From: Gallionellales bacterium GWA2_60_18
GTDB lineage: Bacteria; Pseudomonadota; Gammaproteobacteria; Burkholderiales; Gallionellaceae
Direction: 5' to 3'
Assembly: GCA_001801105.1 (NCBI GenBank)
Contig: MGWS01000002.1
Location: 1-38,377, forward strand
Length of the DNA: 38,377 nucleotides
Shown piece by piece: positions 20,862 to 38,147 of the stretch. How positions within the stretch are numbered: the first letter of the stretch is position 1; each line of letters begins with the position of its first letter. Below the pieces are notes generated by a model. That model ran no database searches. It worked only from the letters and a program-made list of their open reading frames with translations, and was not told the DNA's origin. A program made the position numbers and the translations under genes.

Positions 20862-20890
<29 letters not shown>
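19838..20890 (+). CDS. queA: S-adenosylmethionine:tRNA ribosyltransferase-isomerase QueA
   Basis: 350 residues from ATG 19838 ([19 protein letters not shown]), matching the family start. QueA moves the ribosyl part of SAM to 7-aminomethyl-7-deazaguanine in tRNA to form epoxyqueuosine. [25 protein letters not shown] and THVG-type [14 protein letters not shown] are family motifs. The natural end is near DAMLIERN; the last residues (SPLPQAGEG) and the stop are read from a palindromic repeat. It forms a pair with tgt, 12 bases downstream. Confidence 0.95.
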
Positions 20891-22006
<1,116 letters not shown>

Positions 22007-24298: not shown

Positions 24299-24362
24299 CC
24301 CCTCTCCCGCTTGGCGGGAGAGGGTTAGGGTGAGGGAAACGAGCATGAGTGTGTCATGCTCG
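24299..24362. repeat. Family A palindromic repeat copy 2 plus adjacent hairpin
   Basis: CCCTCTCCCGC (24300-24310), loop TTG, GCGGGAGAGGG (24314-24324), then TTAGGGTGAGGG, nearly the same as the element at 20862. Directly after it CGAGCATGA (24340-24348) and TCATGCTCG (24354-24362) form a second perfect 9-base stem. Together they fill the secD-secF gap. There is no T-tract. Confidence 0.85.
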
Positions 24363-26818: not shown

Positions 26819-26892
26819 GTAGGGTGGGCACGTTTTTTGTGCCCACGCGGCGTGGGGATGCGCGTGGGCACAAAAAAACGTGCCCACCCTAC
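26819..26892. repeat. Long palindromic repeat, family B copy 2
   Basis: The left arm 26819-26849 starts GTAGGGTGGGCACG and the right arm 26861-26892 ends CGTGCCCACCCTAC; they are complementary over 31 bases except for one extra A in the right arm, around an 11-base spacer. It lies between convergent genes and may also act as a bidirectional terminator. Confidence 0.88.
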
Positions 26893-33378: not shown

Positions 33379-35181
33379 ATGCGAACTCATTACTGCGGAC
33401 TCCTCAACACCGACCAACTCGACCAGACCGTCAGTATCTGCGGCTGGGCGCACCGCCGCCGTGATCACGGCGGGGTGATCTTCATCGACCTGCGCGACCG
33501 CGAAGGTCTGGCACAAGTCGTGTGTGATCCCGACCGTGCCGACATGTTCAAGATCGCCGAATCGGTACGCAGCGAATTCGTGCTGCGCATCACCGGCAAG
33601 GTGCGCCGCCGCCCGGAAGGCACGACCAATTCGAATATCACCAGCGGCGAGATCGAGATCCTGTGTCACGAGATCGAGGTGCTGAATACGGCGGTGACAC
33701 CGCCGTTCCAGCTCGACGACGAGAACCTGTCGGAGAACGTGCGCCTGACCCATCGCGTGGTCGACCTGCGCCGCCCGCAGATGCAGAAGAACATGATGCT
33801 GCGTTACAAGGTGGCGATGGCGTTCCGCCGCTTCCTCGACAGTCGCGGCTTCCTCGACATCGAGACGCCGATGCTGACCAAGTCCACGCCGGAAGGCGCA
33901 CGCGATTATCTGGTGCCGTCGCGCGTGCATCCGGGCGAATTCTTCGCGCTGCCGCAATCGCCACAGCTGTTCAAGCAGATGCTGATGGTGTCCGGTTTCG
34001 ACCGCTATTACCAGATCACCAAGTGCTTCCGCGACGAAGACCTGCGCGCCGACCGCCAGCCGGAATTCACCCAGGTCGATATCGAGACCTCGTTCCTGAC
34101 CGAGACGCAGATCACCGCGCTGATGGAAGAGCTGATGCGCACCGTGTTCAAGGAAGCGCTGGATGTCGATCTGCCCAACCCGTTCCCGCGCATGAGCCAT
34201 GCCGAGGCGATGGCGCGTTTCGGTTCGGACAAGCCCGACCTGCGCGTGACGCTGGAGCTGACCGAAGTCACCGACGCGGTGAAGGATGTCGCATTCAAGG
34301 TGTTCGCCGGCGTGGCGAATTCCGAGACCGGTCGCGTGGCCGCGTTGCGCGTGCCGGGTGGTGCGGTATTCACCCGCGGCGAGATCGACGAGTACACCAA
34401 ATTCGTCGGCATCTACGGCGCGAAAGGGCTGGCCTACATCAAGGTCAACGACATCACGCAACTTAACGAAACCGGCCTGCAATCGCCAATCGTGAAGAAC
34501 CTGCACGAAGCGGCGCTGAAGACCATCGTCGAGCGCACTGGTGCTGCGAACGGCGACATCATCTTCTTCGGCGCGGACAAGGCCAAGATCGTCAACGACG
34601 CACTCGGCGCGTTGCGCAGCAAGATCGGCCACGACAAGAGCCACACCAACGGCAAGGCATGGGAGCCGCTGTGGGTGGTGGACTTCCCGATGTTCGAGTA
34701 TGACGACGAGGGCAAGCGTTGGGTCGCCTGTCATCACCCGTTCACCAGCCCGAAAGACGAGCACCTGCAATATCTGGAAACCGATCCGGGGCGCTGTCTG
34801 GCCAAGGCCTACGACCTGGCGCTGAACGGCTGGGAGCTGGGCGGCGGCTCGGTGCGTATCCACAAGGAAGAAGTGCAGAGCCTGGTATTCCGCGCGCTCA
34901 ACATCGGCGCGGAAGAGGCGCAACTCAAGTTCGGCTTCCTGCTCGATGCGCTGCAATACGGCGCGCCGCCGCACGGCGGGCTGGCATTCGGACTGGACCG
35001 CATCGTCACCATGATGACCGGCGCCGAGTCCATCCGCGACGTGATCGCCTTCCCCAAGACACAGCGCGCGCAATGCCTGCTGACCCACGCGCCCAGCCCG
35101 GTGGATGAACGCCAGTTGCGCGATTTGCATATCCGCCTGCGCCAGCAAGTGCAGACCACGGCGGAAGTGCTCAAGGAATAA
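33379..35181 (+). CDS. aspS: Aspartyl-tRNA synthetase, likely non-discriminating
   Basis: 600 residues, the bacterial length. N-terminal anticodon-binding OB fold (residues 1-105), class II motif 2 [20 protein letters not shown], the bacterial GAD insertion in the middle and motif 3 [10 protein letters not shown] near the end. The OB-fold loop reads [11 protein letters not shown], with His30 where Pseudomonas aeruginosa non-discriminating AspRS has His31, and not the Leu of E. coli (RRRDLGSLIF). It would therefore charge both tRNA-Asp and tRNA-Asn, with GatCAB amidating the latter; that step is inferred. Confidence 0.95.
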
Positions 35182-35197
35182 ACGATGCCGCAGTTAA

Positions 35198-35275
35198 GTA
35201 GGATGGGTTGAGCGCAGCGATACCCATCATTTTTCGATATTGACGATGGGTATCGCTGCGCTCAACCCATCCTAC
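35198..35275. repeat. Perfect 31-bp inverted repeat, family B copy 3
   Basis: Arms 35198-35228 (starting GTAGGATGGGTTGAGC) and 35245-35275 (ending CAACCCATCCTAC) are perfectly complementary around a 16-base AT-rich spacer. Each arm also contains its own stem GATGGGT/ACCCATC. It lies between aspS and the RNase gene and probably limits readthrough between them. Confidence 0.92.
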
Positions 35276-35304
35276 CTTGTGGGTTTGTGACTGAATAAGG
35301 GCTG

Positions 35305-35673
35305 ATGATGTTGCGTTCCCTGCGTTTTGAGTGGGCACTGCTGGCTGTGTTGTTGTGGCTGCCGTCCGCACAGGCCGGGCGACATGAACCAACCGGGTTG
35401 CCAACCATTGCGGCAACCGCGTTGCCCGCCGAGGCGCGCGAAACCTTGCAGACCATCGAGCGCGGCGGGCCGTTCGCCTACCCGCAGGACGACAGGGCGT
35501 TCGGCAACTACGAACGTATCCTGCCGCAACAGCATCGCGGCTATTACCGCGAGTACACGGTGAAGACGCCGGGCGCGCGCAATCGCGGCGCAAGGCGCAT
35601 CGTGTGCGGGCCGCTGCCGGAGTGTTATTACAGCGCCGACCATTACCGGACCTTCAAACGCATCAAGGACTAG
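35305..35673 (+). CDS. Secreted guanyl-specific ribonuclease (RNase Sa/barnase superfamily)
   Basis: 122 residues (121 from the adjacent ATG 35308). A signal peptide ends AQA at residue 24. The rest aligns with RNase Sa: LPAEARETLQTIERGGPF, YYREYTVKTPGARNRGARRI and YYSADHYRTFKRI. Catalytic Glu83, Arg94, Arg98 and His113 correspond to Glu54, Arg65, Arg69 and His85. Cys101 and Cys107 could pair. It should cleave RNA after G outside the cytoplasm. The barstar-like gene starts two bases after its stop. SD AAGGG precedes the ATG. Confidence 0.9.
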   Translation: MMLRSLRFEWALLAVLLWLPSAQAGRHEPTGLPTIAATALPAEARETLQTIERGGPFAYPQDDRAFGNYERILPQQHRGYYREYTVKTPGARNRGARRIVCGPLPECYYSADHYRTFKRIKD

Positions 35674-35675
35674 CC

Positions 35676-36074
35676 ATGAATCCGCTGGCACAACAACTGA
35701 ACGATATTGCAGCAGCAGGAAGCTATACGCTGGTCTGCGGCGTGGACGAACTGCGCGCCGCCGCCAATGATGCGAGCTTTGCGTTGTTCGAGGCCGACCT
35801 CAAGGGCGTCAAGGGCAAGCAGAACCTGCTCGATGTGCTGGCGCGCGCTGCCGGCTTCCCGCCGGAGTTCGGCGCGAACTGGGATGCGCTGGCCGATGCG
35901 CTGTGCGACCTGTCGTGGCGCGGCGAAACGGCGGGCTATGCGTTGCTGCTGCGCAATGCCAGCGCCACGCTGGGCCTGTCCGCCAACGATCGCGAGATCG
36001 CACAGGACATCTTCGCCGACACGACGCTGTATTGGCGACAACGCGGCAAAGCATTCTGGATATTCTTCGGTTAA
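35676..36074 (+). CDS. Barstar-like RNase inhibitor
   Basis: 132 residues from ATG 35676, no signal peptide, so cytoplasmic. The region FPPEFGANWDALADALCDL (residues 61-79) matches the barstar segment with the acidic inhibitory residue Asp39 kept as Asp74; barstar Trp38 is Ala here. The acidic residue equivalent to Glu76 is Asp115 in IFADT. The C-terminal strand FWIFFG is typical. It should protect the cell from the adjacent RNase before export. Its stop overlaps the nudB start by one base. Confidence 0.88.
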   Translation: MNPLAQQLNDIAAAGSYTLVCGVDELRAAANDASFALFEADLKGVKGKQNLLDVLARAAGFPPEFGANWDALADALCDLSWRGETAGYALLLRNASATLGLSANDREIAQDIFADTTLYWRQRGKAFWIFFG

Positions 36075-36583
36075 TGCCCCACTTCAAACAGCCGGTCTCG
36101 GTGCTGGTAGTGGTCTATACCGCTGCGCTTGAGGTGTTGTTGTTGGAGCGCGCCGACCATCCCGGCTACTGGCAGTCGGTCACCGGCAGCATCGAACCGG
36201 GCGAGGCGTTGCGCGACACCGCGATCCGCGAAGTGAGCGAAGAAACCGGGCTGGATGCAAGTCTATACGCACTGGCCGACTGGCAGACGCAGAACGACTA
36301 CGAGATCTACCCGCATTGGCGTCACCGCTATGCGCCCGGCGTCACCCGCAACACCGAGCACGTGTTCGGCCTGCAACTGCCCCATCCCGTTGCCATCCAG
36401 CTCGAACCGCGCGAGCACTTGAACTTCAAGTGGTTGCCGTGGCAGGATGCGGCGGACAAAGTTTTTTCACCCAGTAACCGTGCTGCGATCTTGCAGTTGC
36501 CGGAGCGGGAAATCCCCCCCATTCCCCCTTTTGCAAAAGGGGGCGGCGAACGAAGTGAGCGGGGGATTTGTGCAGCCCTATAA
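36074..36583 (+). CDS. nudB: Dihydroneopterin triphosphate diphosphatase, C-terminus extended by a repeat
   Basis: 169 residues from ATG 36074, overlapping the barstar stop (TAATG). The Nudix box is perfect: Gly38, Glu44, then Arg52-Glu53 and Glu56-Glu57-x-Gly59. The opening FKQPVSVLVVVYTAALEVLLLER and FKWLPWQDA near residue 118 match NudB, which acts in folate synthesis. NudB normally has about 150 residues; the last 23 (from Ile147) are translated from a palindromic repeat. aspS near nudB is a common arrangement. Confidence 0.9.
   Translation: MPHFKQPVSVLVVVYTAALEVLLLERADHPGYWQSVTGSIEPGEALRDTAIREVSEETGLDASLYALADWQTQNDYEIYPHWRHRYAPGVTRNTEHVFGLQLPHPVAIQLEPREHLNFKWLPWQDAADKVFSPSNRAAILQLPEREIPPIPPFAKGGGERSERGICAAL
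36511..36569. repeat. Family C palindromic repeat, left copy
   Basis: AATCCCCC (36511-36518) and GGGGGATT (36561-36568) are outer inverted arms. Inside is the perfect 20-base palindrome CCCCCTTTTGCAAAAGGGGG (36524-36543), followed by CGGCGAACGAAGTGAGC. Bases 36535-36569 are identical to 36989-37023. The element encodes the nudB C-terminus and supplies the GGGGGA before the DUF559 start codon. Confidence 0.92.
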
Positions 36584-36950
36584 CAAAAAGCTGAAACAGT
36601 TTTCCAGAGCGCTGCGCTCAAACATGACCGAGACGGAATCACACTTGTGGCGGCGTTTGCGAAACAAGCAGATTCATGGGGTTCAGTTTTACCGGCAAAA
36701 ACCGTTACTATCGTTCATCGTGGACTTTTACTGTCCAAAAGCAAAACTGGTGATCGAGCTGGATGGCGCGCAACATTTTGAACCTGAGCATCAGATCAGG
36801 GATGGAAAACGCGATGAGTCGCTGGCGGGTATCGGGCTAAAGGTGTTGCGGTTTGATGATCGCCAAGTGCTAATGGAAACTGAAGCGGTACTGGAGGTGA
36901 TCCATGCCGAGGTGGCATTGAGACTGGGCGCAAATTCGAATCCCTCCTAA
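36570..36950 (+). CDS. DUF559 endonuclease-fold protein flanked by repeats
   Basis: 126 residues from GTG 36570 (VQPYNKKLKQFSRALRSNMTETE), which matches the usual start of the family; the frame is open upstream but only through nudB and the repeat. The core is of the Vsr-like PD-(D/E)xK type: Asp52 in IVDFYCP, Glu63 and Asp65 in VIELDGAQHF, His69. It should bind metal and cut or nick DNA, but no activity is proved for the family. The gene overlaps the nudB end by 14 bases. Its stop (36948-36950) lies inside the right-hand repeat. Confidence 0.88.
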   Translation: MQPYNKKLKQFSRALRSNMTETESHLWRRLRNKQIHGVQFYRQKPLLSFIVDFYCPKAKLVIELDGAQHFEPEHQIRDGKRDESLAGIGLKVLRFDDRQVLMETEAVLEVIHAEVALRLGANSNPS

Positions 36951-37033
36951 CTCCCCCTTGCAAAGGGGGATCACATAGCCCCCTTTGAAAAAGGGGGCGG
37001 CGAACGAAGTGAGCGGGGGATTTAGCGGGGGAT
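36939..37033. repeat. Family C palindromic repeat, right double copy
   Basis: The first unit has AATCCC (36939) and the hairpin TCCCCCTTG/CAAAGGGGGA (36952-36970). The second has CCCCCTTT (about 36979-36986)/AAAAAGGGGG (36988-36997) and then the 26-base block ending in GGGGGATTT (37023), plus an extra AGCGGGGGAT. Bases 36989-37023 are identical to 36535-36569. It ends 16 bases before nadA. Confidence 0.92.
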
Positions 37034-37049
37034 AACTGGAACAATAATT

Positions 37050-38147
37050 ATGCAAGAAGACATCATCTACATCCCGTATGACCATCCCGACGCCGCGCAA
37101 TCAGGGTGCGCCACGGTGCAGGCGTGGGCCAGGGTGCCGCGCGAACCCGATGTGCAGGAAAGGCATGAGCTGATCGCGCGCATCAAGCGCATGCTCAAGG
37201 AACAGGATGCCGTGCTGGTGGCGCATTACTACGTGCATCCGGATTTGCAGGATCTGGCCGAGGAGACTGGCGGCATCGTGTCCGACTCGCTCGACATGGC
37301 GAACTTCGGCCACCGCCATCCGGCCAAGACCATCGTGGTCGCAGGCGTGCGCTTCATGGGCGAGACCGCCAAGATACTCAACCCCGAAAAGCGTGTGCTG
37401 ATGCCGGAGCTGGCGGCGGAATGCTCGCTCGACCTCGGCTGCCCTGCGGATGAATTCGCCGCCTTCTGCGACGCGCATCCCGACCGCACCGTGGTGGTGT
37501 ACGCCAACACCAGCGCGGCGGTAAAGGCGCGCGCCGACTGGATGGTGACCAGCTCGATCGCGCTGCCGGTGGTGAAACATCTCAAGGAACAGGGCAAGAA
37601 GATACTGTGGGCACCGGACCGGCATCTGGGCGGCTACATCCAGGAGCAGACCGGCGCGGACATGCTGCTGTGGCAGGGCTCGTGCGTGGTGCACGACGAA
37701 TACAAGGCGCAGGAACTGATCGAGCTGAAGGCGCAGCATCCGCTGGCCAAAGTGCTGGTGCATCCCGAGTCGCCGCGCGCGGTGGTCAAACTGGCCGACG
37801 TGGTCGGCTCCACCACCCAGATCATCAAGGCATCGCAACGGCTCGACGCGCCCGAATTCATCGTCGCCACCGACAACGGCATCCTGCACAAGATGCGCGC
37901 CCTGTCGCCGCACAAGGTCTTCATCGAAGCGCCCACCGCCGGGGTCGGCGCGACCTGCACCAGTTGCAGCCACTGCCCGTGGATGGCGATGAACGGCCTG
38001 CGCAACCTGGCGGAAGTGCTGGAGACAGGGAAGAACGAGATACATGTCGATCCGGCGATCATCCCGCGCGCGGTGCTGCCGATCAAACGCATGCTGGATT
38101 TTGCCAAGCAGATTGAGATGCCAACTAGCGGTATCGGGAACGCCTGA
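37050..38147 (+). CDS. nadA: Quinolinate synthase A
   Basis: 365 residues. NadA joins iminoaspartate and dihydroxyacetone phosphate to quinolinate, the precursor of NAD. The [4Fe-4S] ligands are Cys125 (LAAECSLD), Cys212 (GSCVVHDEY) and one of the CTSCSHC cysteines, probably Cys309. The N-terminal half has [17 protein letters not shown] and [12 protein letters not shown]. An ATG at 37050 follows GGGGGATAACTGGAACAA, in part from the repeat. No nadB or nadC is nearby. Confidence 0.96.

Follow-up and report, generated by a model that had tools for sequence, protein, structure and literature searches.

REPtrons are the closest described systems to the element reported here. They pair a REP-associated tyrosine transposase (RAYT, or TnpAREP) with repetitive extragenic palindromes (REPs) and REPINs; their gene is bordered by palindromes, their miniatures lie genome-wide as inverted pairs, and enzyme type goes with repeat type (PMC3116915, PMC8266576, PMC3733652). 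The spread of REPINs is described as a central but unresolved issue (PMC3116915), and one large REP group apparently has no dedicated transposase (PMC3733652). The locus analysed here occupies positions 36510-37023 of a 38,377-nucleotide stretch of Gallionellales bacterium GWA2_60_18 (contig MGWS01000002.1), the whole of which we call the window, and consists of a DUF559 gene framed by hairpin repeats. Non-autonomous copies of such repeats, paired units included, are seen genome-wide in relatives; counted over four classes (A to D), they reach 107 copies in one genome. An earlier note on this DNA had drawn the comparison with RAYTs and REPs; the layout and the miniature derivatives bear it out, and the pairing of enzyme and repeat does so in part, for classes A and B only. 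The differences are equally specific. The window enzyme is a predicted Vsr-type nuclease (DUF559) and not a HUH tyrosine transposase (Y1), its repeats are without the GTAG tag, although some loci of the other DUF559 repeat classes have GGGTAG or CTACCC, and related DUF559 cassettes can be multicopy in a genome, whereas RAYTs are described as single copy. The window element works like a REPtron but is none, because tests for a HUH enzyme and, in the window, for a GTAG tag found neither. On balance, 36510-37023 is probably a REPtron-type mobile palindrome with a Vsr-type nuclease in place of the HUH transposase, an enzyme that would bind, cut and help copy the repeats.

Other known systems resemble the locus in single traits. 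The EDxHD homing endonuclease I-Bth0305I and Vsr have the same fold and active-site residues; unlike them, the window gene lies between palindromes and is without an Rfam intron match at 35100-37300. Short units that retain the ends of a gene-bearing element are also found among bacterial miniature inverted-repeat transposable elements (MITEs), although the enzyme presumed to partner them here, DUF559, does not belong to the known transposases. Rickettsia palindromic elements are palindromic repeats carried in frame inside host proteins, as DUF559 cassettes are, but the cassettes bring a nuclease gene in frame along with the repeats. YcjD (PRK09767) belongs to the DUF559 family, and inspection by eye finds C-rich palindromes downstream of E. 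coli ycjD; the window protein reaches 75.8 bits against the YcjD model NF007294, below its cut-off of 218. Among the titles and abstract openings listed by searches of open-access literature, none linked DUF559 with palindromic repeats.

The cassette between nudB and nadA

The features of the locus are the following.

36074..36583, + strand: Nudix gene, nudB-like by position and in the naming of the earlier note (NUDIX PF00293, 71.4 bits; translation)
36510..36523, + strand: outer tail of the left repeat, AAATCCCCCCCATT
36524..36544, + strand: left hairpin, CCCCCTTTTGCAAAAGGGGGC, class A
36545..36569, + strand: inner tail of the left repeat, GGCGAACGAAGTGAGCGGGGGATTT, abutting the GTG
36570..36950, + strand: DUF559 gene, 126 amino acids, predicted Vsr-like nuclease fold (Pfam, PDB profile matches, AlphaFold2 model)
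36939..36952, + strand: inner tail of the right repeat, AATCCCTCCTAACT, containing the DUF559 stop codon
36953..36969, + strand: first right hairpin, CCCCCTTGCAAAGGGGG
36979..37023, + strand: second right hairpin (36979-36997) and its tail (36998-37023), the final 35 bases equal to the left copy
37050..38147, + strand: nadA, the host gene to the right of the insertion (PF02445, 350.5 bits)

Letter-by-letter comparison of 36535-36569 with 36989-37023 reveals 35 bp without a difference, exactly as the earlier note had it, within a wider match of 50 nt at 92% identity (36520-36569 and 36974-37023). A 25-nt part of the repeat, with up to three mismatches allowed, occurs at these two places only in the window and in none of 100 shuffles. 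Chance origin is ruled out by the shuffles, by the exact 35-bp identity and by the hairpin enrichment at the loci of relatives. Outward from the gene, each side presents a tail and then a hairpin, with GGGGGATTT before the GTG and AATCCC before the stop; the hairpins beyond the tails have the form CCCCCTTT..AAAGGGGG. By eye, the window repeats contain no GTAG or CTAC tag, their tails being GGGGGATTT and AAATCCC. The left side has a single hairpin in the window and two in most related nudB-nadA loci, while the right-hand stretch (36939-37023) comprises two. The DUF559 stop codon (36948-36950) lies in the inner tail AATCCCTCCTAA of that stretch and not inside the right 35-bp copy where it had been placed; three related loci (L169, L175 and L189) have the same stop-in-tail arrangement.

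The left repeat now codes for the 3' end of the Nudix gene, whose stop, at 36583, falls inside the DUF559 gene. The left repeat does abut the GTG, in agreement with the earlier description; its GGGGGA, there named as the ribosome-binding site, is separated from the GTG by just 3 nt, a short spacing for such a site. Since the Nudix frame runs through the left repeat into the DUF559 gene, translational coupling is as likely. A structured RNA was considered and set aside, there being no Rfam match at gathering threshold within 35100-37300.

The protein matches DUF559 (PF04480) over residues 7-115 with 121.3 bits against a cut-off of 20.6, and its only other Pfam row, MTES_1575, is below its own cut-off. 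PDB profile matches are to 3hrl (E 2.3e-33) and 3r3p (E 4.6e-6), and the AlphaFold2 model, with a mean predicted local distance difference test (pLDDT) score of 87.5, has Vsr-fold matches. D52, E63, D65 and H69, the residues singled out from the sequence at the start, do not vary in two alignments, one of 46 and one of 42 sequences, and neither do R16, E23, W27, Q43, F53, G66 and D78. By fold and active-site residues the protein is probably a small nuclease of the Vsr/EDxHD type. Among nine nudB-nadA copies, nonsynonymous distances are 0.14-0.31 and synonymous distances at least 0.68 or saturated; as judged from these distances, the gene is under purifying selection at this locus, and its insertion there is not recent. 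Relatives of the protein are present on 41 plasmid and 12 phage records. The cassette DNA of the window was not found on plasmids.

Hairpins and DUF559 genes across bacteria

The repeats accompany the gene far beyond the window. In a cross-phylum survey of the best 80 of 114 relatives, 78 loci were usable (at least 100 bp on either side), and a hairpin occurs within 300 bp of DUF559 on one side or the other in 65 of them, from many phyla (upstream in 46, downstream in 60, on both sides in 41). Hairpin density is 3.48 per kb up to 300 bp from DUF559 versus 0.118 per kb beyond 600 bp, about 29-fold. The hairpin expression and those for classes A to D were composed after inspection of the flanks, and the controls were run with identical expressions. 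Inspection by eye of 16 named loci, a set without control, gives C-rich palindromes on at least one side of DUF559 in each. These span alphaproteobacteria, cyanobacteria, Deinococcus, Neisseria, Photobacterium and E. coli, and they overlap (the Azospirillum locus three times, the E. coli locus twice, two similar Picosynechococcus plasmids). Two Sphingomonas loci have DUF559 inside gene clusters, between sufB and sufC (L215) and between a GatB/YqeY-type gene and dnaG (L214).

Genome-level counts come from 80 genomes of one family (that of G003, presumed Gallionellaceae), with 106 DUF559 rows of at least 88.8 bits used, 19 weaker ones dropped, and standalone defined as an open frame shorter than 300 amino acids. 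At the 85 standalone loci, which are 84 of the 85 family rows plus the window, a class A to D repeat is found on at least one side in 62, on both sides in 28 and of the same class on both in 27. The prospect, raised at the outset, that DUF559 genes would usually be without flanking repeats is thus not borne out in this family, and control windows contain such a repeat in 1 of 161 cases. The 3' side of nadA, taken for comparison, has one in 2 of 24. Clustering of the repeats at small accessory genes in general is not seen for ParE (1 of 27 loci; 30 fetched, one per genome, 27 with full flanks, some from genomes without DUF559).

Copy number follows the gene. The median is 14 repeat copies in the 49 genomes with a standalone DUF559 versus 0 in the 31 without (p 3.7e-8, rho 0.71), counts that include the gene's own flanks. 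Copies are present in 44 of the 49, with a maximum of 107; of the 31, 15 have one to seven copies and 16 none, so in this family the repeats are not common in genomes lacking a standalone DUF559, as the earlier note had allowed they might be. With own flanks subtracted, at four copies per DUF559 row, the difference persists (p 2.0e-4), and at least eight copies occur in 24 of 49 versus 0 of 31 genomes. A reversed-pattern control gives zero in all genomes searched but one. The maximum belongs to G024, whose 107 copies, of classes C and D, lie in 1.3 Mb beside one standalone DUF559.

Repeat class corresponds in part to the class of the gene's flanks. Own flanks included, the association has p 1.9e-6 for class A (the window's class), 2.8e-5 for B, 1.5e-5 for D and 0.021 for C; own flanks subtracted, it holds for A (p 4e-4) and B (p 1e-4). 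On the protein tree, repeat class changes 5 times versus 25-35 times with shuffled labels (300 shuffles), as counted over the 58 of 91 tree rows with a single class label, the other 33 being left out.

Empty sites, in-frame insertions and multiplied cassettes

Empty-site alleles, which the earlier note had looked to close relatives to provide, are present at nudB-nadA and in HrpA. nadA was found in 79 of the 80 genomes, and 30 of its loci were inspected. In 23 of these nudB and nadA lie 3-44 bp apart and the site is empty; three have the full cassette, two have repeat remnants but no gene, one has other DNA, and in G003 the gene stands beside nadA at a contig end. Five further loci have the cassette at nudB-nadA (L001, L180, L185, L186 and the window). 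Empty, remnant and full alleles together argue that the cassette at this site is an insertion. On the nadA tree of the 30, in which many forks are unresolved, cassette presence changes at least three times.

Cassettes are also found within host genes. Six DUF559 domains that sit in long frames prove to be cassettes whose repeats are translated. For three of them, family searches identify the host protein on either side, as HrpA helicase (L197), methionyl-tRNA ligase MetG (L198) and an MmeI-like methylase (L199). At one HrpA site, 30 of 77 matching loci were inspected by eye: 18 are empty, seven have the gene, four have solo repeats (one of them with an interrupted frame) and one has a GTAG-type palindrome. 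The four HrpA cassettes that the protein tree includes group in a single clade, which makes one insertion with later losses likely. The GTAG-type palindrome (L233, in G054) is a paired one, in frame at the very HrpA site that holds DUF559 cassettes in other genomes.

Multiplication is seen in G068, where five cassettes on five contigs (L172, L173, L178, L181 and L184) align through gene and repeats and differ in their outer flanks. The left outer end is absent in L173 and the right in L181, and L184 has lost catalytic residues. Three of the five copies have outer inverted ends, CTATGTGA...TCACATAG, outside the repeats on either side. Twenty stretches with solo hairpins were retrieved, 16 of them picked as pairs 42-82 bp apart. 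All 11 pairs of classes A and B are hairpin-tail-spacer-tail-hairpin units, that is, cassette ends without the gene, and the five class D pairs, from G024, have their tails outward, as in REPINs; the remaining four stretches are single or irregular.

Two further cases were tried and rejected. A recent empty site was looked for in Azospirillum, where the locus is present in every one of the seven records that cover 80% or more of the query. In E. coli, at least 80% of the sapF-ycjD-fabI query is present in 3362 of 5426 genomes; both genomes without ycjD that were inspected have an efflux operon at the site and so provide no clean empty site. An efflux operon in the place of ycjD in E. coli has been reported (PMC12817139).

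Proposed mechanism and its alternatives

The cassette and its association with the repeats are supported, whereas for the recognition or copying of hairpins by the protein, as proposed in the earlier note, and for their cutting we can offer an inferred scheme. The DUF559 protein would bind hairpin and tail together in repeats of its own class, probably when the hairpin is extruded as a cruciform or is single-stranded during replication. The nuclease would then cut at or next to the hairpin, or at a target, and host repair or replication would copy the palindromic unit to a new place, either with the gene or without it. Copies with the gene would be the autonomous form, and the short hairpin-tail-spacer-tail-hairpin units would spread in trans. 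Action of the nuclease on hairpins of its own class is suggested by the link of copy number to the gene combined with the partial class matching.

Several observations weigh against this scheme. At the level of loci, 13 of the 78 in the cross-phylum survey are without a hairpin of the searched form (six Bacteroidales-type, five Clostridia-type, one Selenomonas, one Ignavibacteria), and 23 of the 85 standalone loci have no class A to D repeat. Among the 49 gene-bearing genomes, five have no repeat copy at all. With own flanks subtracted, class matching is lost for class C (p 0.67) and borderline for class D (p 0.048, medians 0), and in G024, with its 55 class D hairpins, the sole standalone DUF559 is flanked by class C. 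Part of the agreement between repeat class and protein tree comes from cassettes inherited whole at one locus, for which the shuffle is uncorrected. Independent pairs on supported branches number only five, too few for significance, with none opposite at eight or more copies. A replicate in a second family (48 genomes, the family of G007, Geobacteraceae-type; class A only; DUF559 rows of at least 106 bits in a frame of any length, nine weaker dropped) is marginal (p 0.057, rho 0.10). The G068 cassettes are only 89-94% identical. In HrpA and G068, where the approximate position of the ends can be given, no target-site duplication was recognised. Between class A copies and Y1 counts there is a weak correlation (rho 0.28, p 0.011). 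GGGTAG or CTACCC adjoins the gene at 6 of 22 class B, 4 of 11 D, 3 of 12 C and 1 of 12 A loci, and kinship with RAYT repeats is possible, since GTAG-tagged REPs have the same motif. Finally, mismatch repair is discussed as the likely role of a DUF559 nuclease from Caulobacter (PMC12907096).

The class A correlation and the GTAG in some B, C and D tails favour a passenger role for DUF559, in which a RAYT, an insertion sequence or replication slippage moves the palindromes and the gene merely travels inside. Y1 domains, moreover, are present in 64 of the 80 genomes, and GTAG-type palindromes occur in the window and at the HrpA site of G054. Over the four classes together, however, copies track DUF559 and not Y1 counts, with which they have no link (rho 0.05, p 0.63). 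At least eight copies occur in five of the eight genomes with DUF559 and no Y1, and in none of the 23 with Y1 and no standalone DUF559. In addition, ParE genes from this family of genomes do not sit inside these repeats (1 of 27 loci). Joint driving of all four classes by Y1 or RAYT enzymes thus finds no support, and it is class A alone that keeps such an enzyme as a rival. We regard a passenger role as unlikely.

Homing or maintenance would need no spread at all: the nuclease would cut empty alleles or unoccupied repeats, repair would copy the repeat-flanked gene into the homologous site, and the palindromes would be by-products of keeping the locus. It leaves unexplained why genomes with the gene have solo copies scattered by the dozen and why G068 has five related cassettes at different loci, and we consider it an unlikely account as well.

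That DUF559 is a Vsr-like repair enzyme, its hairpins regulating its mRNA or marking cleavage-prone sites, is improbable. The Vsr fold speaks for a role in repair or defence, as do weak matches to DpdF and a methyl-directed restriction model, and a DUF559 protein is reported to be behind an SOS response when a methylase is missing (PMC12907096). Neither the genome-wide solo copies nor the in-frame cassettes inside HrpA, MetG and the methylase gene are explained by such a role. Shared ancestry, genome size or assembly effects, producing the genome-level link with no functional tie, could draw on the single family behind all 80 genomes, the powerless independent-pair test and the marginal second family, but local flank enrichment in many phyla and the reversed-pattern control make them very improbable.

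A wider reading of the mobile, nuclease-bearing palindrome is tentative. Standalone DUF559/Vsr-like nucleases may be dedicated mobilisers of a bacteria-wide superfamily of C-rich palindromic elements, each clade with its own hairpin class, and many orphan C-rich palindromes, including in-frame ones in HrpA and MetG, may be their products. If true, REP-like DNA would have a second route of spread, one not related to HUH transposases. With palindromes paired to a second enzyme class, such repeats would gain a candidate enzyme, and how short hairpins spread would become open to test. DUF559, still named 'of unknown function', would gain a role. The cassettes in HrpA, MetG and the methylase also show that a nuclease gene can be carried in frame within conserved host proteins.

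Elsewhere in the window, two long perfect inverted repeats (35198-35275 and 26819-26892) start with GTAGG and end with CCTAC, like GTAG-tagged palindromes. Two copies of GCGGGAGAGGGTTAGGGNGAGGG (20876-20898 and 24314-24336) resemble the class C repeat with its tail. Directly 5' of the Nudix gene, at 35305-36074, genes for a barnase-like ribonuclease (PF00545) and a barstar-like inhibitor (PF01337) overlap.
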